A DNA stretch of 64,000 nucleotides from the NCBI RefSeq assembly GCF_000993805.1, contig NZ_CP009961.1:800714-864713 (forward strand), read 5' to 3'. This document shows positions 15,443 to 27,531 of this stretch, one piece after another (the first letter of the stretch is position 1; each line of letters begins with the position of its first letter). A model generated the notes under the pieces. The model was not told the DNA's origin. It saw only the letters and a list, made by a program, of their open reading frames with translations, and made no database searches. The DNA comes from Thermofilum uzonense (GTDB lineage Archaea > Thermoproteota > Thermoprotei > Thermofilales > Thermofilaceae). A program made the translations under genes and the position numbers.

Positions 15443-17221
15443 CTAAGGAGGCATGGCAACGTGGAAGGCGGCAAAAGCCACGTTGTACCATGTTATTAGT
15501 AGTGCAGCTATGAAGGCGCCTATCCAAGCATTTCCTGTTCTCCTGTTATAGTACGTAATAATAGAGACAGTTATGATGCTTATTATAGGGACAACGATAT
15601 AGTAAATCATTGCTAGGGGTACGCCTCCGAATACATAGTTCCATGAGAGTGTCTGGGGCATTCCAAGGTATAAGGGTATGTAGTAGTAGAGTAAGAATCC
15701 GATAGAACCCAGGGAGATTATCAAGGAATTAATTATTATTTCTTTTGACAGGCTGACATTTCCAGCCTTAAATCTCATAAAACCATAGAAGAGGACTGCT
15801 ATAACCAGGTAGTAGAAAAGGAAAGGTAGGAAGTACATAACTGTGAAACCGAAACGAACCATGCTCATGGGCCTCAGAACAATGGGCTCTGGTAACCCGG
15901 CGAGAGTAAATGGAACCCTGAAGAAGGCATAGCAGTATGCCAGGGTCAGGTATACAGGTGCTAAGACAAATACTGCGAAAACAAAGCTCTTCAATATCTT
16001 CTCGAGAGGAAGTTTTAGTCCTGTGTTCTCGAAGTTAAATCCCTTCTTCTTTAGACTAAGGTAATAGAATACTGCAAGGAGAATAACTGTCACTAACGCA
16101 ACCGTGTCCATCCACGCTAGATAACGGTTCGTCGGAGCTTGAGGGGTGAGCACGTTCAAGAATAGTGGATTCATGCCCCACTCAATGAATGTTGGGAGGA
16201 ATAGGAGCGGTCCTAGCAGGGTTGTAATTGCAGCGGCTATCCAGTAGCTACTACCTGTGAAGCCTCTATACTCAGGTGTTGGGGCGGTAAGGTCTTGGAA
16301 ATATTTTGTGTCAAGGAGGAATGTCCCAAAGGAGAATATGAAGGCGACGGCTGCTAGAAATGCTATGCTTGTGAATAGTTGTTTTAGCGGGAAAATAAGG
16401 TCGTTTCTAGGGATGTCTTTACCTCCTTTAAGCGTCATTTGCATCCATTCAATAACATTGCCTATGCTAGTCGGATCATCTGTAGAGGCTGCGTGGTCGA
16501 TGTATGGGCTGTAGAGAATTCTGGCCGTGCCCTTTGAAATATCACCGTATACTTTCCCGGGCACTATGTCCTCGCTGACGTTGAAGATCTGCTTAAGAAC
16601 AGGGGATCGAGGTATATCTTTTCCTGTAGGCACCTGCAGCCAATACGGTGTGAATTCGTCGGCGAAGGCCATCTGTATTGCAACGTTTTTAAGCTTGGGA
16701 GCTACGCTTGGAGGAAGCACGTAGGAGTCCATATAAAACATTGATTTGTAACCGTCGGGGACCGCTAGGGCGGCGGCTTGTATTGCCCAGCCACCCATGG
16801 ACATCCCTACTAGTCCTATGTTGTTTTTATCAACGTAGGCAAGCGACCTCAAGTAGTTTAAGCCTGCAACCGCACCATACGAGAACAAGCCTACAGCTCC
16901 CTCTGAAAAACCGTGTCCCGTCATATCTATTGCCAAGACGACGTAGCCTCTCCTGGCTAGCTCTAGCGCGGTATTGTCCATGTATTCTTTTTGATTATTG
17001 TAACCATGAATGGCTAGTATACCTGGTGCGGGCTTCTGCGGTGTTGCATCTGCTGGGACGTAAAGGTGTGCGCTGATGAGCTCGTTGTTTGGACCGTAGA
17101 ATCTGACGTCTTGTACAGTTACGTATCCGAAGCTACTCATGACGGAGTATGCGAGGAAAGAACTTATGATCATTGTTAGAAGGAGGGCCAATGATATTAA
17201 TCCCGGATTGATTTTCGTCAT
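15443..17221 (-). CDS. Alpha/beta hydrolase fused to a polytopic membrane domain
   Basis: The first hydrophobic segment (residues about 10-32) is a signal anchor. An alpha/beta hydrolase domain follows to about residue 275, with the HGYNNQ oxyanion region, DMTGHGFSEG, and the nucleophile elbow GMSMGG. The rest, about 300 residues, holds seven or eight membrane helices. The hydrolase should face outside the cell. It resembles peptidase S9- or dienelactone hydrolase-like enzymes, but the substrate is unknown. TAAATATATG centred 25 bases before the ATG suggests a leaderless transcript. Confidence 0.78.
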   Translation of the reverse strand: MTKINPGLISLALLLTMIISSFLAYSVMSSFGYVTVQDVRFYGPNNELISAHLYVPADATPQKPAPGILAIHGYNNQKEYMDNTALELARRGYVVLAIDMTGHGFSEGAVGLFSYGAVAGLNYLRSLAYVDKNNIGLVGMSMGGWAIQAAALAVPDGYKSMFYMDSYVLPPSVAPKLKNVAIQMAFADEFTPYWLQVPTGKDIPRSPVLKQIFNVSEDIVPGKVYGDISKGTARILYSPYIDHAASTDDPTSIGNVIEWMQMTLKGGKDIPRNDLIFPLKQLFTSIAFLAAVAFIFSFGTFLLDTKYFQDLTAPTPEYRGFTGSSYWIAAAITTLLGPLLFLPTFIEWGMNPLFLNVLTPQAPTNRYLAWMDTVALVTVILLAVFYYLSLKKKGFNFENTGLKLPLEKILKSFVFAVFVLAPVYLTLAYCYAFFRVPFTLAGLPEPIVLRPMSMVRFGFTVMYFLPFLFYYLVIAVLFYGFMRFKAGNVSLSKEIIINSLIISLGSIGFLLYYYIPLYLGMPQTLSWNYVFGGVPLAMIYYIVVPIISIITVSIITYYNRRTGNAWIGAFIAALLITWYNVAFAAFHVAMPP

Positions 17222-17240
17222 TGAGCCTAATGGAATCTAA

Positions 17241-17250
17241 CATATATTTA
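17241..17250 (-). promoter_or_regulatory. TATA box of the membrane hydrolase gene
   Basis: TAAATATATG on the minus strand is centred 25 bases before the ATG at 17221. Confidence 0.5.
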
Positions 17251-17315
17251 TGTATTTTGTAAGCTATGTTAATAATGGAAAACTTATTAGAGTTTCTATA
17301 CTAAATATTAAACGC

Positions 17316-18890
17316 ATGAGTGAAAAAATCCTCGTTATAGATCAGGGGACAACTGGGACGCGTGTAGCTATTTACGACGAGGAGGGGAAACCCGTACAAG
17401 GGGGCTGGGCTTACAGGGAGCACTCACAGATCTTTCCAAAGCCCGGTTGGGTTGAGCACAACCCTCTAGAGATTTGGGAGAAAACACTGATATGTATGAA
17501 GGAGGTTCTTGATCGCTCTAGGATTAGAGCAGAGGAAATAGCCGCTATAGGTGTGACCAACCAGCGTGAAACTGTTGTGGTTTGGGATCCGCGTACAGGA
17601 CAGCCCCTTTACAACGCCATAGTCTGGCAGGACAGAAGGACCGCACCTATCACTGATGAGCTCCGCCGGGGACATTTCGAGCTGATATATGAGAAGACTG
17701 GCTTGGTCCCCGATCCGTACTTTTCAGGTAGCAAGATCAGGTGGTTGTTGGAAAACATCCCGGGCCTCCGTGACAAGATGGGTAAGGGAGAAGCGCTCTT
17801 TGGAACCATTGACTCTTGGATTATCTGGAACCTGACCCGAGGGTCGCCGAACACGTTGACCCCGGATAAGGGCGGTGCCCACGTCACGGATTACTCTAAC
17901 GCTTCTAGGACAATGCTCTTCAATCTGCATAAGCTGGATTGGGATCCAGAGTTGTTGGAGCTATTAGGTGGCATCGACGTGGAAAGTCTTCCTCTACCTA
18001 GACCTTCAAGCGAAAGAGATGCCTACGGCTACACGGGACCAGAAGTTAACGGTGTGTTTAATGGAAAAAGTGTACCTGTGACAGGCGATGCAGGGGATCA
18101 GCAGGCAGCCTTGTTCGGACAAGTGGGTTTCGATGAGGGGGATGTTAAGTCAACGTATGGTACGGGGAATTTCATACTCTTGAACACTGGGAAGAATGTC
18201 GTCAAGTCCAAGAATAATTTACTTTCAACTGTTTTTTACAGCCTTGAGCCGGGGAAGGCGACTTACGCACTCGAAGGTAGCATATTCATAACGGGTGCCG
18301 CGATTCAGTGGCTTAGAGACGGTCTTAAACTAATAGAGGTTTCACCGGAGATTGACCCACTAGCGGAGTCTACCGATGACACTGGGGGATTGTACTTTGT
18401 CCCAGCTTTCACTGGTCTTGGAGCCCCATACTGGGATCCCTACGCTAGAGGATTAATAATCGGTATAACGCGTGGAACCTCGAGAAAACATATTGCAAGG
18501 GCTGTTATAGAGAGCATTGCATACTTGACGAGAGATGTTATAGAGGCGATGGAGAAAGACATCGGTGGTAGGATCAGGATCTTGAAGGCGGACGGCGGAG
18601 CTGCTAAAAGCAATGTCTTGCTTCAATTCCAGGCCGATATCCTCGGCGTCGAAGTCCAGAGGCCTTTGATTAGCGAGACAACATCGCTCGGCGCGGCGTA
18701 CCTAGCAGGTCTTGCGGTTGATGTTTGGGAGAGCCTTGACGAGATCCGCAAATTATGGAGAGCTGAGAGAGTTTTCAAACCCCAGATGGATGCGGGGAGA
18801 AGAGAAAAACTCTACAGCGGGTGGAGGGCTGCGGTTAAGCGTTCACTCGGCTGGGCCAAGGAGGTTCCCTGGGCTTATGGGTATGAGTAA
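17316..18890 (+). CDS. glpK: Glycerol kinase
   Basis: It phosphorylates glycerol to sn-glycerol 3-phosphate with ATP in the cytoplasm. The FGGY kinase pattern is complete: IDQGTTGTR near the start, [15 protein letters not shown], the [13 protein letters not shown] segment and TYGTGNF, then [19 protein letters not shown] and the C-terminal ADGGAAKSN. Length 524 fits. A longer frame begins at 17250, but the ATG at 17316 begins right before the first strand ([11 protein letters not shown]). It heads the glycerol cluster with the dehydrogenase and SDH-like subunits downstream. Confidence 0.96.
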
Positions 18891-18916
18891 GAAAATAATA
18901 TATCTTATTTTAAATA

Positions 18917-18931
18917 TTTTTGTTACAAAAA
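18917..18931. promoter_or_regulatory. Small inverted repeat between glpK and the dehydrogenase gene
   Basis: TTTTTG and CAAAAA flank TTA in a 71-base gap that is otherwise A/T-rich. The TTTTG...CAAAA core resembles the palindrome at 35712-35735. The short arms in such composition make this weak. Confidence 0.3.
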
Positions 18932-18961
18932 ATTGAAATACTATGTAGGGGTAATGTCGCT

Positions 18962-20125
18962 GTGGAAAGACGGGACAAGGAGATACTAGTCATCGGCGGC
19001 GGCGTTACGGGTGCAGCTATAGCATATGACCTTGCCCTTCGCGGGTTCAAGGTTCAGGTTGTCGAGAGGGGCTCTCTCGGCGCGGGGACGAGTGGGCGAA
19101 CTCATGGACTCTTACATAGTGGTTGCAGGTATATTGCCGACGTGGAGGTTGCACGTGAGTGTTATGAGGAGAATGTCATATTGAGGAGGATAGCGCCTTT
19201 CCTCTTCGAAAAGAATGGAGGGCTTTTCATCGCTATTACAGAGGATGATTTAAAGTACAAAGACTTTTTCCTAAAGCAGTGTGAGCGGGCTCGGATACCT
19301 GTTCGCGAGGTATCAAGAGAGGAGGCGTTGCGCCTTGAACCTAACCTTAATCCTGAACTCAAGGCAGCAGTAGAGGTGCCGGATGGAACCTTTGACCCCC
19401 TGAAGGTCATCTTGAGCTTCGCGGCTTCGGCTAAAAAATACGGGGCTGAGTTTAGGCCTTACAACGAGGTAGTAGGTTTTAGAGTCTCGGATGGTAGAAT
19501 CGTCGGAGTACGTGTCCTGGACAAGGTAAGGGCTCGGGAGTACGAGCTTACCCCTGACTTCATCATAAACGCGACAGGTGCTTGGGCTGACAAGGTTGCA
19601 AGGCTGGCAGGCGTCAGGGTTCCCGTGAAGCCTAGCCCGGGGGTAATGGTGGCGCTGGATGGTAGGATTGGGTACATGGTGTTTAACAGGCTTAACAAGC
19701 CGGGGGATGGGGATATAATAGTTCACCATAGAGGGACTAGCGTCGTGGGAACCACTTCGTGGGTCGTCGAGGATCCAGACATTGTTAGAGCTCCCCAGGA
19801 TCACGTAGAGCTGATGATCAAAAGGGGTTCCGAGCTAGCTCCGATCGTGTCAAAGCTGAGGGTGAAGGCTGTATACGTCTCGTCTAGGCCACTAATAGGA
19901 GAAGGAGCGGCCACGACTGGAAGGGAGGTTAGCAGGAGCTTTGCAATACTGGATCACTCTCGTGACGGAGTCGAGAATTTCGCGAGCATCATAGGTGGGA
20001 AGTTTACTACTGCGAGGCTTATGGCCGAAAAAATGGGTGATTTTGTTGCCGAGAGACTTGGCGTTTCTGTGCGGTCCAAGACCTCGGAATTACCCATGAG
20101 CCCCTACTGGCTCTACTTCGAATAG
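18962..20125 (+). CDS. glpA: FAD-dependent glycerol-3-phosphate dehydrogenase, GlpA type
   Basis: It oxidises sn-glycerol 3-phosphate to dihydroxyacetone phosphate. The N-terminal FAD-binding motif is GGGVTGAAIAYDLALRG, followed by ERGSLGAGTSGRTHGLLHSGCRY, the hallmark of the GlpA/GlpD family, and a C-terminal GGKFTTARLMAEKM region. The 387 residues include the dehydrogenase core but not the C-terminal helical or BFD-like domain of E. coli GlpA. The GTG at 18962 is chosen since AGGGG lies upstream and the first strand begins six residues later. SdhB-, SdhC- and SdhD-like genes follow within 11 bases, so this protein probably sits in the flavoprotein position of an SDH-like complex. Confidence 0.9.
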   Translation: MERRDKEILVIGGGVTGAAIAYDLALRGFKVQVVERGSLGAGTSGRTHGLLHSGCRYIADVEVARECYEENVILRRIAPFLFEKNGGLFIAITEDDLKYKDFFLKQCERARIPVREVSREEALRLEPNLNPELKAAVEVPDGTFDPLKVILSFAASAKKYGAEFRPYNEVVGFRVSDGRIVGVRVLDKVRAREYELTPDFIINATGAWADKVARLAGVRVPVKPSPGVMVALDGRIGYMVFNRLNKPGDGDIIVHHRGTSVVGTTSWVVEDPDIVRAPQDHVELMIKRGSELAPIVSKLRVKAVYVSSRPLIGEGAATTGREVSRSFAILDHSRDGVENFASIIGGKFTTARLMAEKMGDFVAERLGVSVRSKTSELPMSPYWLYFE

Positions 20126-20135
20126 GTGAGAATGG

Positions 20136-20807
20136 ATGAAATACAAGGTTGTGATAAGGAGATATAAGGATGGAAGGATTAGCTTCGATACCTTCGAAGT
20201 AGAGGCAAATCCCAGCGAGAGTGTTCTTGATGTTGTCGAGAGAATAAGCATCGAAAAGGACAAGACACTGGTATTCGAGCACGCTTGTCACCATGGCGTC
20301 TGTGGCGCTTGCGGGATGGTGATTAACGGTGTGGAGAGGCTTGCCTGCATCACGAGGATCGGAGACGTGGCTAGGAATGGGGTTGTTGTACTTGAACCCT
20401 TAAGGGGCTTTAAGGTGATAAGCGACCTGGCCGTGGACAAGTCGAGAATGTTTGGACGTTATAGGCATGTGGCCCCGTCTACACTTGAAAAGCTCGAGTT
20501 AAGGTTGAATAATGCTGTGTCAATTCCGCGGGAAAAGCTATACGACTGCCTGGAGTGCGGCATCTGCTATTCAGCATGCCCGATTGCTAACACGTTCCCC
20601 GAGTATCTCGGGCCTTCATTGCTAGCCTTGATCTCTAGGTCGGGCAACGAGAGAGTTCCACGTGTCGTAGACTCGCGTAGGGGTGTCTGGGGGTGTCATG
20701 CGGCTTTCGAGTGTAGTGTTAGGTGTCCTGTAAACTTCAAGCCCGGGGAGTCGATCCTGAAGCTTAGAAGGAACATTATTAGTGGTAGGGTTAGGGTTGA
20801 GGGGTGA
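20136..20807 (+). CDS. SdhB/FrdB-like iron-sulfur subunit
   Basis: All cysteines of a three-cluster SdhB are present. CHHGVCGAC plus a later Cys (EHAC...LAC) ligate a [2Fe-2S] cluster in a plant-type ferredoxin domain (residues about 1-95). CLECGICYSACP and CHAAFECSVRCPVN ligate a [4Fe-4S] and a [3Fe-4S] cluster in the C-terminal domain. In SDH this subunit carries electrons from the flavoprotein to quinone. Here no SdhA gene is present; the gene lies 10 bases after the GlpA-type dehydrogenase and six before a membrane anchor gene. The likely role is an electron wire from glycerol-3-phosphate dehydrogenase to the membrane. Confidence 0.9.
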   Translation: MKYKVVIRRYKDGRISFDTFEVEANPSESVLDVVERISIEKDKTLVFEHACHHGVCGACGMVINGVERLACITRIGDVARNGVVVLEPLRGFKVISDLAVDKSRMFGRYRHVAPSTLEKLELRLNNAVSIPREKLYDCLECGICYSACPIANTFPEYLGPSLLALISRSGNERVPRVVDSRRGVWGCHAAFECSVRCPVNFKPGESILKLRRNIISGRVRVEG

Positions 20808-20813
20808 GGTTTT

Positions 20814-21194
20814 GTGGGTTTAAGAGATGCTTTTACTAGTTGGTTTAGGATTAAGGGCAGAAGCCTGGAGCATGTAAGTTTCGCTATCAGGAGACTGACA
20901 GGTATAATTATGGCATTCTATCTTCTCGGCCACCTTGTTGACATTACGACGCTGCTGGCTGGACCCGAGGCTTACTCGCAGCTTTTAAACCTCTTTGCCG
21001 GGCCCATGGGAGTCGTGATAGACTCGTTTTTATGGGCTGTACTCGTTATTCATGGAACTCTGGGTATCTATTCCGCTATTGTTGAAATGGGGTTCCTTCT
21101 AGAGCATAGGCGTAAACTTCTCGTTATTGCATGGATCTGTGCTCTCTTATTCATTCTGCTTGGTGTAGAGGTGATTATAAATGTCCTCAGGTAG
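20814..21194 (+). CDS. SdhC-like membrane anchor subunit
   Basis: The 126-residue protein has three membrane segments. RRLTGIIMAFYLLGHLVDI matches the 'R.TG......HL' first helix of SdhC-type cytochrome b subunits, and VIHGTLGIYSAIVE resembles their 'H...G.R' second helix; the two His could ligate heme b. It starts with a GTG with GTGAGG seven bases upstream in the end of the previous gene. Its last 14 bases overlap the next gene. It probably anchors the Fe-S subunit and may form part of a quinone site. Confidence 0.82.
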   Translation: MGLRDAFTSWFRIKGRSLEHVSFAIRRLTGIIMAFYLLGHLVDITTLLAGPEAYSQLLNLFAGPMGVVIDSFLWAVLVIHGTLGIYSAIVEMGFLLEHRRKLLVIAWICALLFILLGVEVIINVLR

Positions 21195-21528
21195 AAAAAG
21201 CCTTGGATGGATCTTCCAGGTAATTACAGCGGTAATCCTAGTCGTAGCTGTTCTTGCCCACCTCTTACGCGTACACATCTGGGGCTCTTATAAAGGGCTG
21301 CCAACATACCAAGACGTGATAGCGGCCTTCAAGAACCCTCTTGTACTCGGCATGGAACTCGTCTTGGCCGGTGCGGCTATCTACCACGCCTTGTACGGAC
21401 TCCACATGGTTCTAGTTGAAGCTAACTTAGTGAAAGAAGAAAAATCTAGGAAAATTCTAACCATATTAGGTTCAGCTATGTTCATCTATGCATTAATCCT
21501 GTCGATTATCCTAGCAATTAAACCATAA
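21181..21528 (+). CDS. SdhD-like membrane anchor subunit
   Basis: The 115 residues form three membrane segments. HLLRVHIWG and IYHALYGLHMVLVE carry histidines, the latter matching the 'YHAL.GLR' heme helix of SDH anchors. The gene overlaps the SdhC-like gene by 14 bases and ends the glycerol operon. With its partner it would make a six-helix anchor as in type C/D SDH. The family assignment relies on those motifs and on context. Confidence 0.78.
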   Translation: MSSGRKSLGWIFQVITAVILVVAVLAHLLRVHIWGSYKGLPTYQDVIAAFKNPLVLGMELVLAGAAIYHALYGLHMVLVEANLVKEEKSRKILTILGSAMFIYALILSIILAIKP

Positions 21529-21592: not shown

Positions 21593-22726
21593 TTATTTTC
21601 TTTTACCCTGTGAGCTCTGTGTTAGTGGGTTTTCCTCGTGCTCCTCATCATTGTCTCCGTGTCCTTTTTTCTCGAGGCCTGGCGGAAGGATTTTCTCCTT
21701 AGGGGGTTTTGAGGCTGTAGGTATATCCACCTCCTCTTCTATCTCTTTCACGTGTTTACCCTCCTCTTTGACCTCTTCTTTTATCTTCTTCTCGATCTCT
21801 TTGATTTGCTTTGATATGTTTTTGGACATGTTTCTTACCTCGGCTTGTATCTCTTCCAGCTCAGCTGCTGTTTCATTGATACCTGTGCGAGTCCGATTGC
21901 GAACCTCCTTTAACTTGGGGATTTTATGAATTATTAGCGACTGGTTAAGGAATGCTGTGTCATTCTTCTTTAAGAGGCCTAGCTTCATCGCCTTGATTAC
22001 AGTGACGTGTAATGACTGTCTGTTTAGCTCAGCGTTTACAAGTCCGAGGATCTTTTTGACAACTGCAAGGTTTTGGGCTAAAATGGACACAGTGATGTTA
22101 CCTTGGGCAAGCTGGTTTCTCGTCTGGGCTAGTATTGTCTTAGCATAGTCAAGCAGTTGGAAGACAAAGGTGAGGTTGAACTCTGACTGATTTAGCTTTG
22201 AAAGTGATGCTTCGAGCGCAGTTACTCTAGCCTCAAGTACTTGAAGCTGCAGGAGTAGTGCTGTCTTGTTGAGGGCTTCCTCAACCTCTTTTACCTCGGT
22301 TTGGTTTAGGTGTTCCTCTGCTTCCTCAAACTCTAGATTTATTCCAGCTTTCTCAGCGAATTCCTCTAGGATCTCAATAACGTTATCATAAGTGTTTATA
22401 GCATAGATTGCATAAAGCTTGGCTCCCGTAAAGTTTCCTGAGTTGTATAACTGGATGCTTAAGTTCAGGTATGTGTCAGCCTGGCTGAGTAGTCCTTCAA
22501 TCAATGATAAGTTGAGAGACTTTGTCATGTTCAACAGAGACTTGTTTGCGCTCAGGACAGAGAGCGTGACGTTTAGCCTCTCGTAGGCTATCTTTTTGAG
22601 CTTTTGGGCATTCCTTATCAGTATTTCGACAGAGTTATCTTTTGAGGCACTAACGCTCGCAGAGTAGGATAACATCGAGGCTAGCAGCAGTGTTACCAGT
22701 AGCATGCCTACCAATTTTTTGGTCAT
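21593..22726 (-). CDS. Secreted, sequon-rich helical protein of unknown function
   Basis: A signal peptide of about 27 residues is clear (basic start, hydrophobic core, ASVSAS). The mature part is largely predicted helix and coiled coil and carries about 17 N-glycosylation sequons (Asn-X-Ser/Thr), such as NVT, NKS, NMT and NLS. The C-terminal third becomes highly charged with alternating Lys and Glu and then a Pro-rich and acidic tail. I recognise no family. It may be an extracellular or surface-bound glycoprotein. It ends convergently with the glycerol operon and has no operon partner. Confidence 0.7.
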   Translation of the reverse strand: MTKKLVGMLLVTLLLASMLSYSASVSASKDNSVEILIRNAQKLKKIAYERLNVTLSVLSANKSLLNMTKSLNLSLIEGLLSQADTYLNLSIQLYNSGNFTGAKLYAIYAINTYDNVIEILEEFAEKAGINLEFEEAEEHLNQTEVKEVEEALNKTALLLQLQVLEARVTALEASLSKLNQSEFNLTFVFQLLDYAKTILAQTRNQLAQGNITVSILAQNLAVVKKILGLVNAELNRQSLHVTVIKAMKLGLLKKNDTAFLNQSLIIHKIPKLKEVRNRTRTGINETAAELEEIQAEVRNMSKNISKQIKEIEKKIKEEVKEEGKHVKEIEEEVDIPTASKPPKEKILPPGLEKKGHGDNDEEHEENPLTQSSQGKRK

Positions 22727-24465: not shown

Positions 24466-26448
24466 TCATGCGAAACCTAACAGATGACCCACGATTATAA
24501 TCGCGAAAGCAACAACATATGCCAGTATCATTGAATAGACGATAGCAAACAACGTCCACTTCAGCGAGTTAGTTTCCCTGTATATCGCTGCGATAGTCGC
24601 GACGCAAGGCATGTATATGAGGGTAAAGGCCATGAATGCGAAGCCCGTGAGTGGAGTGAAAATCCCCTGACTCCTAAGAGCCTCAGGCAACCCCGTCGCC
24701 TCGGCTCCAAGGAGTAGACCGAAGGTTCCCACGACTACCTCCTTGGCCAGAAAGCCGAAGAAGAGTGCTACGACAGCACGCCAGTCAAAGCCAAGAGGAC
24801 GGAAGAGGGGTTCAAGTGTGCGGCCCAGCATTCCCACGTATGACTCCTCGAGGTGTGACCCCCATGGATAACTCGAAAGGAACCACACCACAATCATGGT
24901 AAGTGTTATTATTGTCCCCGCCTTCTTCAGAAAAAGTGAGCCCCTTTCCCACATGTGTAGCGCAGTATTCCGTAGAGTTGGTCGTGCGTAATGTGGTAAC
25001 TCTAGGATGAACGGTGAGGGTTTACCCTTGAGTATTGTCCTCCTGAAAAGGAGGGCCATAATTAGGGCTAACGCTATTCCGAGGAGATACATCGAGTAAA
25101 CGCCTATAGCTGCATAAGATCCCAGAACAGCCGAGCTTATTAGAATATAGACGGGTAGCCGAGCGCTACACGACATTAACGGATTAACGAGTATTGTTAT
25201 TATTCGGTCCTCATCACTCTCTATTATCCTGGTTGCCATGACTGCTGGGACATTACAACCAAAGCCTAGAAGCAAGGGGATAAACGATTTCCCGTGGAGA
25301 CCCAGCCTATACATGATCCTATCCATTACGAAGGCAGCCCTTGCAAGGTAGCCGCTGTCCTCGAGAAGTGAGAGCCCGAAGAACAGGAAGAATATAGGTG
25401 GAATGAACGTCAAGACGGCGCCAACACCTCCCAGGAGTCCGTTAACCACGAACCCGGCGAGTTGCTCATTTGGTATGGATGCGGAGGCTAATGTGCCGAG
25501 CCAGCCAAAGAACATTTCTATCAAACTCGTGAGGGGTGCTGAGACGTCGAAGGTAAACCTGAAGAGGAGCCACATAGACGATAGGAAAACAGGTATTCCT
25601 GCATACTTGTCTAGCAGCGCTTTGTCGAGTAGGTCGGTGACCGTTAATGGTTTCGCTCCTCTTACAGTTTTACCAAGCACGCCACTTATGAACTCATAAC
25701 GTGCCTCAGCTAAAACTACGCTAGCATCTCCGCCGAGTTCCTTCTGGAGGCTCTCTTTGAGGGCTAATATTCTTTCCTTTTGAGAACTTTTCTCAATCTC
25801 TTTTAATACTTCTTCATCACTCTCTAACACTTTTATAGCAAGCCATCTTGTAGGATACGCTTCAGCGAGTAACTTGTCTTCTTGGATGAGCTGCTCCATT
25901 CTTGAGATTATTTTCTCGACGCGTTCATTATAGCGTAGCGTGCTACCTCTCCTCCTCTGTTTTGAGGCTTCAAGGATGGCGTCTAACAGCTCCTGCATAC
26001 CTTCCTTCGTCGTTGCGATTGTCGGTATAACCCTTACACCAAGCATTTTCGAAAGGCCCTCAACGTCTATTTGAAAGCCAAGGCTCTTTGCCAGGTCATA
26101 CTTGTTCAAGGCAACGACGACATTTGCCTCAAGCTCGAGCAATTGAAGTGTCAGGTATAGATTTCTTTCGAGGTTCGACGCGTCGACTATGTCAACCACG
26201 ACATCAGGCTTCTCCTTCACTATATAGTCACGCGCTATCATCTCGTCAATAGTCTGAGCGGTCAAGCTATATACTCCAGGAAGATCAACAATCTGGATAT
26301 CCTCTCCTCTATGCCTGCATCGCCCCTCCTTCTTCTCAACAGTTTTACCAGGCCAGTTTCCGACGTGAACCCTACCCCCCGTGAGATTGTTGAATATTAG
26401 ACTTTTACCGACATTAGGATTTCCAATGAGAGCTACCCTTATAGTCAC
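24466..26448 (-). CDS. feoB: Ferrous iron transporter FeoB
   Basis: FeoB is the G-protein-coupled Fe(II) uptake permease of the membrane. The G domain has G1 GNPNVGKS (residues 9-16), G3 DLPGVYSL and G4 NKYD, followed by a helical domain and a core of about eight to ten helices with the two FeoB gates: GFGCNVPAVMATR and, later, MPCVATIAAIYRE, each with the conserved Cys. The 660 residues fit. A GTG at 26448 overlaps the stop of the preceding feoA as GTGA, which suggests coupling; an ATG five codons earlier is possible. Confidence 0.96.
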   Translation of the reverse strand: MTIRVALIGNPNVGKSLIFNNLTGGRVHVGNWPGKTVEKKEGRCRHRGEDIQIVDLPGVYSLTAQTIDEMIARDYIVKEKPDVVVDIVDASNLERNLYLTLQLLELEANVVVALNKYDLAKSLGFQIDVEGLSKMLGVRVIPTIATTKEGMQELLDAILEASKQRRRGSTLRYNERVEKIISRMEQLIQEDKLLAEAYPTRWLAIKVLESDEEVLKEIEKSSQKERILALKESLQKELGGDASVVLAEARYEFISGVLGKTVRGAKPLTVTDLLDKALLDKYAGIPVFLSSMWLLFRFTFDVSAPLTSLIEMFFGWLGTLASASIPNEQLAGFVVNGLLGGVGAVLTFIPPIFFLFFGLSLLEDSGYLARAAFVMDRIMYRLGLHGKSFIPLLLGFGCNVPAVMATRIIESDEDRIITILVNPLMSCSARLPVYILISSAVLGSYAAIGVYSMYLLGIALALIMALLFRRTILKGKPSPFILELPHYARPTLRNTALHMWERGSLFLKKAGTIITLTMIVVWFLSSYPWGSHLEESYVGMLGRTLEPLFRPLGFDWRAVVALFFGFLAKEVVVGTFGLLLGAEATGLPEALRSQGIFTPLTGFAFMAFTLIYMPCVATIAAIYRETNSLKWTLFAIVYSMILAYVVAFAIIIVGHLLGFA

Positions 26449-26681
26449 GGCGATCCACCCCATTCGACAATAATCTTCATCAGAATACCTCGCCCCACCA
26501 TGACTCTAGATCCCCTCACCTCTATGAGAACAGGCCCCGCAGAACCAGAATGAATGACTTTTACCTTGGCACCAGGGGTAAGGCCTAAATCTAAGAGCCT
26601 CCTCATAATGCCCATACCTCCTCTAACCTCGACGACTATGGCTTCCGCGTTCTCCGGAAGAAACGCTAGCGGGAGCCTCAC
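26445..26681 (-). CDS. feoA: FeoA-domain protein 2
   Basis: The 78 residues form an SH3-like FeoA domain with the motif MRRLLDLGLTPGAKVKVI and a final strand VMVGRGILMKIIVEW. FeoA binds the G domain or the membrane part of FeoB. Its GTG start overlaps the preceding feoA and its stop overlaps feoB by four bases, so the three are translationally linked. Confidence 0.85.
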   Translation of the reverse strand: MRLPLAFLPENAEAIVVEVRGGMGIMRRLLDLGLTPGAKVKVIHSGSAGPVLIEVRGSRVMVGRGILMKIIVEWGGSP

Positions 26682-26925
26682 CTTCCCTCACCTCATTCAC
26701 AATGACGTATATGTGCTCGCTTTCACTCTTCCTCAAACTAATATTGTATCCCTTAACAAGATACTCTATAGGGTCACCCAATGGTGCCTTTCTGAGAACA
26801 ACTACCTCCGCGCCCTTGACAAAGCCCATATCCATCAGCCTTTTACGTAGAGTTGGCTCGCCTGTGACGCGTGAAACGATACCTTTTTCTCCAGGTTTCA
26901 AGGAAGCCAGAGGTTTTTCGCTCAT
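26623..26925 (-). CDS. feoA: FeoA-domain protein 1
   Basis: The FeoA landmark is RKRLMDMGFVKGAEVVVL (residues about 27-44), followed by DPIEYLVKGYNISLRKSE, which ends the small barrel. A Ser/Gly/Glu-rich tail of about 20 residues overlaps the next gene by 59 bases. It is the first gene of the feo operon; GGGGGG with AAA precedes the ATG. Two FeoA proteins and one FeoB are a common arrangement in thermophiles. Confidence 0.88.
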   Translation of the reverse strand: MSEKPLASLKPGEKGIVSRVTGEPTLRKRLMDMGFVKGAEVVVLRKAPLGDPIEYLVKGYNISLRKSESEHIYVIVNEVREGEAPASVSSGERGSHSRRG

Positions 26926-26943
26926 TTTCCCCCCATTGAGAAA

Positions 26944-26988
26944 TTTTAGGTTTCACTAATATTTATTGCTTGCCCTAAAAAATTTAGG
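26944..26988. promoter_or_regulatory. Two DtxR-box-like palindromes in front of the feo operon
   Basis: TTAGGTTTCACTAA (26946-26959) has TTAG/CTAA arms and touches the TATA-like element at 26957-26967. CCTAAA-AAA-TTTAGG (26974-26988) is a perfect palindrome just upstream. Both resemble the TTAGG/CCTAA core of DtxR/IdeR operators, and a DtxR-type gene lies divergently next door. Confidence 0.55.
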
Positions 26989-27078
26989 TTCATATTTTTG
27001 CTCTGAGATCAATGAGAGGACAAACCGCTCGCATCGGAATACTTAAAGAAGAGAGAATAATGTAAAAAATAGGTTTAC

Positions 27079-27531
27079 ATGAAACTTAAGATCACTCCCC
27101 GAAAAGAGGACTACCTCCGAGCAATCTACAGGATTACAAAGGAGAAAGGCTATGCTCGAGTGAGAGATATCGCTAAAGAACTTGAGAAAAAGCCCTCAAG
27201 CGTGGTCGAGATGGTTCGCAAACTACAGGCAGAGGGTTATGTCAATTATGAGAAATATGGAGGAGTGACTTTGACTCCCAAGGGGAAAGAGGTTGCCGAG
27301 ATAATTGAAATGAGATACTACACGTTTCTCAAGCTACTCAGGTTAATACTCGTACCTGAAGACATTGCTTTAAAGGATGCTCATGTTCTTGAACACATGT
27401 TGGACCCTAAAACCACCTTGCAGTTTATAAGATTGGTTGAATTTCTTGAGACAAGATTCCAGAACTTTGAAGAGGAGTTCAGTGCTTACTGCAGGAGAAA
27501 AAGCCATGGCTTGGTTCATGGTACCCTTTAG
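27079..27531 (+). CDS. DtxR/MntR-family metal-dependent regulator
   Basis: The 150-residue protein opens with a winged helix (RKEDYLRAIY, VRDIAKELEKKPSSVVEMVRKLQ, VNYEKYGGVTLTPKGKEVA) and continues with the dimerisation and metal-binding domain, with DAHVLEHMLDP in the place of the E..H.ls motif. No SH3 domain follows, as in MntR-type short members. It is divergent from feoA-feoA-feoB, and DtxR-like palindromes lie between, so it very probably represses Fe(II) uptake when iron is plentiful. Confidence 0.88.
   Translation: MKLKITPRKEDYLRAIYRITKEKGYARVRDIAKELEKKPSSVVEMVRKLQAEGYVNYEKYGGVTLTPKGKEVAEIIEMRYYTFLKLLRLILVPEDIALKDAHVLEHMLDPKTTLQFIRLVEFLETRFQNFEEEFSAYCRRKSHGLVHGTL

Follow-up and report, generated by a model that had tools for sequence, protein, structure and literature searches.

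The glpA-sdhBCD locus of Thermofilum uzonense: a putative glycerol-3-phosphate:quinone oxidoreductase on a complex II frame

A further GlpA-SdhBCD locus

GlpA-type flavoproteins have been described with different partners: in the GlpABC enzymes of E. coli and haloarchaea, in the GlpA-CoxG systems of Sulfolobus and its relatives, and together with SdhB, SdhC and SdhD in Thermofilum. For the last of these, the consulted portions of Schmerling et al. 2025 (PMC11962113) describe glpA followed by putative sdhB, C and D in Thermofilum-related species, propose membrane anchoring and electron transfer, and name 'GlpA-SdhBCD (T. pendens) (b)' among the reconstructed complexes in the legend to Figure 9; these portions hold no experiment on GlpA-SdhBCD. 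Here we analyze a locus of this kind in T. uzonense, located at positions 17316-21528 of a 64,000-nucleotide window (the whole stretch of DNA that was analysed; NZ_CP009961.1, positions 800,714 to 864,713 of the forward strand). Judging from its gene content and conserved residues, it probably encodes a membrane-bound sn-glycerol-3-phosphate (G3P):quinone oxidoreductase, built on the frame of complex II with a GlpA-type flavoprotein in place of SdhA.

The T. uzonense locus has the same gene set as GlpA-SdhBCD of T. pendens and comes from the same genus; it is a further instance of an already known arrangement. The initial annotation had been aware of no description of this layout, a statement that the publication cited above has made obsolete. 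The consulted portions of that publication (PMC11962113) consist of synteny and a drawn complex, with no mention of the SdhA test, the SdhB residue switches, the heme ligands, the PsrABC neighbor or the missing quinone pathway considered below. In our view, the interest that is left lies in the signature of the flavoprotein swap and in the quinone question.

Five co-oriented genes on the plus strand make up the locus. The first of them, glpK (17316..18890), codes for a glycerol kinase of 524 residues with FGGY_N and FGGY_C domains (Pfam), which scores over the NCBIfam cut-offs (713 bits for NF000756, cut-off 498; 669 bits for TIGR01311, cut-off 590). It is followed by glpA (18962..20125), which starts with GTG and codes for a short, 387-residue dehydrogenase of the DAO fold (Pfam), dependent on flavin adenine dinucleotide (FAD). 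A longer glpA frame starting with TTG at 18920 was rejected, as it exceeds the length supported by relatives. The sdhB-like gene (20136..20807; 223 residues, Fer2_3 and Fer4_8 in Pfam) codes for an iron-sulphur subunit, and the sdhC-like (20814..21194; 126 residues) and sdhD-like (21181..21528; 115 residues) genes code for membrane anchors. The spacing is tight: 10 nt separate the glpA stop from sdhB and 6 nt separate sdhB from sdhC, and the sdhC and sdhD frames share 14 nt. These coordinates and the Pfam assignments agree with the order given in the initial annotation, glpK followed by GlpA, an SdhB with three Fe-S motifs and two SdhC/D-like anchors.

The comparison with the described systems is as follows. 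With complex II (succinate dehydrogenase/fumarate reductase, SDH/FRD) the locus shares the B, C and D subunits in the same order as in A-B-C-D of an archaeal genome labeled G039 in our set, including an SdhB with all three sets of cluster ligands and two Sdh_cyt anchors with membrane histidines. It differs in having a DAO-fold GlpA for SdhA/FrdA (no match to PF02910, see below), a changed [2Fe-2S] loop and a replaced arginine of the HxxxGxR motif in both anchors. With GlpABC it shares a GlpA core of ~380 residues (40% identical to E. coli GlpA). However, the T. uzonense protein lacks the C-terminal cysteine region, and its operon contains SdhB, SdhC and SdhD instead of GlpB and GlpC, for which the rest of the genome was not searched. 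The GlpA-CoxG systems also include a relative of this GlpA, but encode another membrane partner downstream. According to the consulted portions of PMC11962113, CoxG provides anchoring without electron transfer, and the enzyme of S. acidocaldarius can reduce quinone in the absence of CoxG.

Genomic linkage of glpA and sdhBCD

The initial annotation proposed searching archaeal genomes for GlpA-SdhB-SdhC-SdhD neighbors. In this search the order glpA-sdhB-sdhC-sdhD turned out to be kept in all eight Thermofilaceae genomes that have this GlpA type, namely in all seven genomes of the genus (G000-G006, G000 being the T. uzonense genome, a single contig of 1,611,988 bp) and in G008, where the cluster is spread over two contigs, the second of which opens with the GlpA C-terminus. 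The arrangement is therefore not due to chance. In seven of the eight genomes glpK lies upstream of glpA (~1 kb off in G005). The other nine Thermofilaceae genomes searched (G007, G009-G016) had no match to this SdhB, nor to GlpA at 1e-40.

Outside this group, GlpA relatives have other neighbors. A total of 46 genomes matched GlpA (33 in one search and 45 in a search of the phylum, 32 being common), of which 36 yielded a locus and 10 did not. The neighbor was SdhB in eight loci, a CoxG-like protein in 24, GlpB in three and a contig end in one, with a single partner type per locus. Pfam confirmed COXG in all three neighbors scanned and an FAD-binding (GlpB-like) protein in the only one scanned. 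Among the open reading frames listed, GlpA length tracks the partner: ~387 residues with SdhB, mostly 428-466 with CoxG-like proteins and ~533-553 with GlpB. The phylum search covered 398 genomes, with SdhB in at least 220 and GlpA in 45; adjacency was taken from the GlpA loci only. A separate scan of contigs with GlpA returned three loci, all from Thermofilaceae; it used two narrow peptide patterns and hence is not a census.

Residue switches at the [2Fe-2S] loop of SdhB

SdhB scores 144 bits with TIGR00384, over the cut-off of 88, and stays below those of the equivalog models for SdhB. The sequence contains all three Fe-S motifs, and the 11 cluster cysteines are invariant in the eight genomes. 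By homology, the ligands are C51, C56, C59 and C71 for [2Fe-2S] (20286..20348, plus strand, as for the other ligands), C138, C141, C144 and C148 for [4Fe-4S] (20547..20579), and C187, C193 and C197 for [3Fe-4S] (20694..20726).

We compared the eight Thermofilaceae sequences with 40 SdhBs of the phylum, considering a column conserved if a residue was present in 8/8 of the former and in >=80% of the latter. Both groups conserve 49 columns, and in eight of these the residue is switched: R48E (R in 39 of the 40), Y49H (33), S50A (38), R52H (36), S58A (38), P67E (32), N91G (35) and V201F (35). Five of the eight fall within residues 48-58 (20277..20309, plus strand), the loop at the first [2Fe-2S] ligands, which reads EHACHHGVCGA as opposed to RYSCR...S in most SDHs. 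The hypergeometric probability of this clustering is 0.0014 with the residue range picked post hoc, and a scan permutation gives 0.0058. Grouped by cluster, 6 of the 17 eligible columns are switched near [2Fe-2S], none of the seven near [4Fe-4S] and one of the 10 near [3Fe-4S]. In known complex II this loop faces the flavoprotein, and so its change is what an exchange of the flavoprotein predicts. In a tree of 48 SdhB sequences the eight Thermofilaceae proteins form one clade (100/100) with a long stem (1.45), and the switches may therefore be a single event seen eight times. The clade joins two sequences of family f15, a join flagged as possible long-branch attraction.

Short GlpA without the C-terminal cysteine region

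The GlpA protein matches Pfam DAO at 6e-56. Its best NCBIfam model is TIGR03377 (glycerol3P_GlpA), with 435.7 bits, under the cut-off of 552.8, and with positions 2-376 of 530 matched. Residues R56, Y57, R309, H332, K347, T350 and R352 are invariant in an alignment with E. coli GlpA and GlpD, and we take several of them to be G3P binders in GlpD. The chain ends at residue 387, short of the cysteine-bearing C-terminal part of E. coli GlpA, so that the hallmark of GlpABC, the C-terminal Fe-S (bfd-like) domain, is missing.

We also compared the protein with the GlpAs of 26 of the 28 loci outside Thermofilaceae (CoxG- and GlpB-type; G059 and G074, with short open frames, were omitted). At 31 positions it has a residue seen in none of the 26. 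Among these changes are gains of positive charge, D84->K (D in 21 of the 26), D281->H (D in 22) and E288->R (E in 23), as well as losses, R245->N (R in all 26) and R303->A (R in 25).

Search for an SdhA flavoprotein

Complex II flavoproteins were sought with PF02910 (Succ_DH_flav_C) in 13 genomes of the Thermofilum order (G000-G009, G011, G012 and G017, of which G002, G007 and G008 are 76-81% complete). No match was found in any of them, including G000, flavoproteins with FAD_binding_2 but without PF02910 being outside the search, while the family was present in all nine other genomes of the same search. The absence of SdhA noted in the initial annotation is borne out to this extent. As to a separate sdhABCD operon, which the annotation had proposed to look for, the G000 genome has no PF02910 match and a single Fer2_3 match, the SdhB described here.

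These data bear on the possibility that SdhBCD form an ordinary fumarate reductase or succinate dehydrogenase with its flavoprotein encoded elsewhere, GlpA being a separate enzyme that shares the operon. In favor of it, SdhB retains all cluster ligands and scores over the TIGR00384 cut-off, and flavoproteins lacking PF02910 fell outside the search. However, PF02910 was absent from all 13 genomes, including the single-contig G000; glpA adjoins sdhB in all eight loci; residues are switched at the [2Fe-2S] loop; and this GlpA has neither the C-terminal cysteine region nor a CoxG or GlpB neighbor. We consider this explanation unlikely.

Short Fer2_3-like proteins, in which only the [2Fe-2S] half of SdhB is matched, occur in genomes of family f9 (G034, C1:239941-240650; G039, C1:23717-24432), and further f9 genomes have similar matches. 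They were considered as a second type of GlpA partner and rejected, as those of G034 and G039 adjoin a second SdhA-like gene.

Membrane anchors

Both anchors pass the Pfam cut-off for Sdh_cyt (9e-10 for SdhC and 1e-9 for SdhD) and stay under the cut-offs of the NCBIfam anchor models. According to hydropathy and alignment, SdhC H40 (first hydrophobic segment) and H80 (second), together with S22 and R26, are invariant in the eight genomes, as are SdhD H27 (first segment), H69 (second) and H32. In chosen canonical anchors, the second-helix histidine is present in 12/12 SdhC and 10/10 SdhD sequences, and the first-helix histidine in 7/12 and 8/10, respectively. The arginine of HxxxGxR is found in all of these canonical SdhC (12/12) and SdhD (10/10) sequences, but is replaced in both subunits of all eight Thermofilaceae. 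The top PDB match for both SdhC and SdhD is 6lum_C, an SDH subunit. A weak PDB profile match (E 0.04-0.08) aligns H40 and H80 of SdhC with H44 and H182 in subunit C of a di-heme fumarate reductase; in the Wolinella enzyme these two are heme ligands. Given the four invariant membrane histidines, SdhC and SdhD likely represent a two-heme anchor.

Candidate electron acceptor

NrfD (PsrC-like) proteins were detected in all six genomes of the genus searched (G000, G001 and G003-G006), two of them in G000; the same search gave no match in G008, G009, G012 and G017. Each NrfD gene of G000 comes after a molybdopterin oxidoreductase gene (Pfam), the product of which begins with a twin-arginine motif (identified by eye). 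In G004 the only NrfD is encoded together with molybdopterin and Fer4 subunits in an operon on the opposite strand, which ends 12 nt from sdhD. In the consulted part of PMC2678158, Tpen_1121-1123 of T. pendens are given as a sulphur/polysulphide reductase that is a molybdoenzyme. Since Psr-type genes are present, and in G004 stand beside sdhD, a short chain from G3P through quinone to polysulphide is plausible.

The G004 operon (L083:1777-5650) is of the PsrABC type, with products of 812, 187 and 292 residues, and is convergent with sdhD. Near the corresponding place, G001, G003, G005 and G006 have a reading frame of ~690 residues, which in G001 is raffinose-synthase-like (Pfam, run for G001 only).

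Proposed function and alternatives

We propose that GlpK makes G3P and that GlpA, given its family and conserved residues, would oxidize it to dihydroxyacetone phosphate (DHAP) on FAD. SdhB, whose [2Fe-2S] cluster would accept the electrons from GlpA, may stand in for the Fe-S domain absent from this GlpA; the electrons would move on, in the order expected from complex II, through [4Fe-4S] and [3Fe-4S] to the SdhC/SdhD anchor. With its four membrane histidines, placed as in two-heme anchors and presumably binding heme, the anchor would reduce a membrane quinone. The quinol might be re-oxidized by the sulphur/polysulphide reductase of the PsrABC type, the genes of which are present. The replacement of SdhA by GlpA, put forward in the initial annotation, is supported by the linkage in 8/8 genomes, the lack of PF02910 in 13 genomes (several of them incomplete), the missing cysteine region of GlpA and the switches in the [2Fe-2S] loop.

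Several observations weigh against this proposal. Neither T. uzonense nor T. adornatum uses glycerol for growth; instead, it may be that the pathway provides DHAP for sn-glycerol-1-phosphate lipids or serves as a supplement. G008 has no glpK beside glpA, on a contig of only 3.5 kb, and no NrfD match, in a genome 76% complete. MqnA/MqnD (PF02621, futalosine route) was not over cut-off in the 12 Thermofilaceae and G017 searched, the MenD route not being covered. Finally, neither of two AlphaFold2 models of tethered GlpA-SdhB placed the two proteins confidently with respect to each other, a result that we weigh neither way. The models were built for G001 (49 alignment rows) and G005 (73 rows), with just five rows containing both halves, and had a predicted local distance difference test score (pLDDT) of 81.0 and 86.6 and a predicted TM-score (pTM) of 0.66 and 0.67, respectively. 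In the second model almost all of both halves is confident, and its pTM is about that estimated, without a control run, for two unplaced domains of such sizes. The alignment for the first model misplaced 2-13 residues in 18 of the 19 distant SdhB rows, and that for the second passed a comparable check. In Foldseek the first model matched GlpD and GlpO entries best, which is what a GlpA should do.

Even if the complex is real, it might run in reverse in the cell, with quinol reducing DHAP to G3P as an electron sink. Complex II relatives work both ways, and the lack of growth on glycerol in the two species fits this direction. However, the potential of DHAP/G3P (~-190 mV) is below that of menaquinone (~-74 mV), so that a driving force would be needed, and the upstream glpK in seven of the eight genomes points to catabolic G3P; we regard reversal as very improbable. 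An equally slim chance is left to a substrate other than G3P, some other alpha-hydroxy compound, for which speak the score under the curated GlpA cut-off, residues such as N245 and H255 that occur in none of the 26 other GlpAs compared and the one genome in eight with glpK not beside glpA, and against which stand R56, Y57, R309, H332 and K347, common to E. coli GlpA and GlpD, the best-matching families, which are GlpA, and glpK upstream in the remaining seven.

If the proposed GlpA-SdhBCD complex is real, complex II would be modular, a frame that can take its catalytic subunit from another protein family, and the exchange could be read from residues near a single Fe-S cluster. Such a complex would also offer an entry point to the electron carriers of the Thermofilum membrane and to the dependence of the genus on other archaea.

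The quinone question

Among the 12 Thermofilaceae genomes, including all seven of the genus, and G017, PF02621 (MqnA/MqnD) gave one sub-threshold match, in G008. The family is over cut-off in G034, G039, G045, G049 and G139, and is missing from G027, G089, G103 and G149 although Succ_DH_flav_C is present there. Because these four genomes lack it too, the absence of MqnA/MqnD is a weak indication and no proof that quinone is lacking. UbiE (TIGR01934) was rejected as a quinone marker, since it stayed below cut-off in every genome, those with MqnA/D included.

A MenA-like prenyltransferase (NF004617) is over cut-off in all six genomes of the genus searched and also in G103, and not over cut-off in G008, G009, G012 and G017. 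In all six the coordinates place its gene convergent with a second UbiA-family gene. In the five genomes scanned this partner resembles heme O synthase; it passes the cut-off in G000 alone, the stretch scanned in the other four being partial. The G000 pair (L076:6244-8020; C1:900243-902019) consists of the heme O synthase-like protein (TIGR01473, 214 bits, cut-off 210) and the MenA-like protein. Heme-copper oxidases (PF00115) were not found in the six genomes searched, and the UbiA-family pair is kept in all six despite this. G000 also encodes, at L079:5630-7749, a second MenA-like prenyltransferase and, directly after it, a radical-SAM protein similar to the heme b synthase AhbD; both score below cut-off.

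According to the consulted portions of PMC4673724, T. uzonense depends on filtrate from cultures of other Crenarchaeota, and T. pendens on a polar lipid fraction of Thermoproteus; Fervidicoccus and Desulfurococcus filtrates serve, cell-wall fractions cannot replace the filtrate, and 'T. librum' does without a supplement. It is conceivable, if improbable, that Thermofilum respires G3P with sulphur via the flavoprotein-swapped complex II while being unable to make the quinone head group by known routes, so that quinone, or a head group to be prenylated by the MenA-like enzyme, would come from neighbors and form part of the lipid or filtrate need. A quinone share in this need is our own idea, and the failure of cell-wall fractions, the success of filtrates of other genera and the independence of 'T. 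librum' speak against it.

Promoter and neighboring genes

The word TTTAAATA at 18909..18916 (plus strand), a candidate archaeal TATA box for glpA-sdhBCD, is the sole match to three TATA-like words within 17151-21000. Its assignment follows what we take to be the archaeal TATA consensus, and it could give glpA-sdhBCD its own promoter. Downstream of the cluster, at 21593-22726 of the window, is a reading frame of 377 residues without a Pfam match, relatives of which (38-60% identity) are encoded near the cluster in six other genomes of the genus. Farther on, at 24466-27531, FeoB, FeoA and an iron-dependent repressor (Pfam) are encoded within a few kb of the Fe-S enzyme operon.

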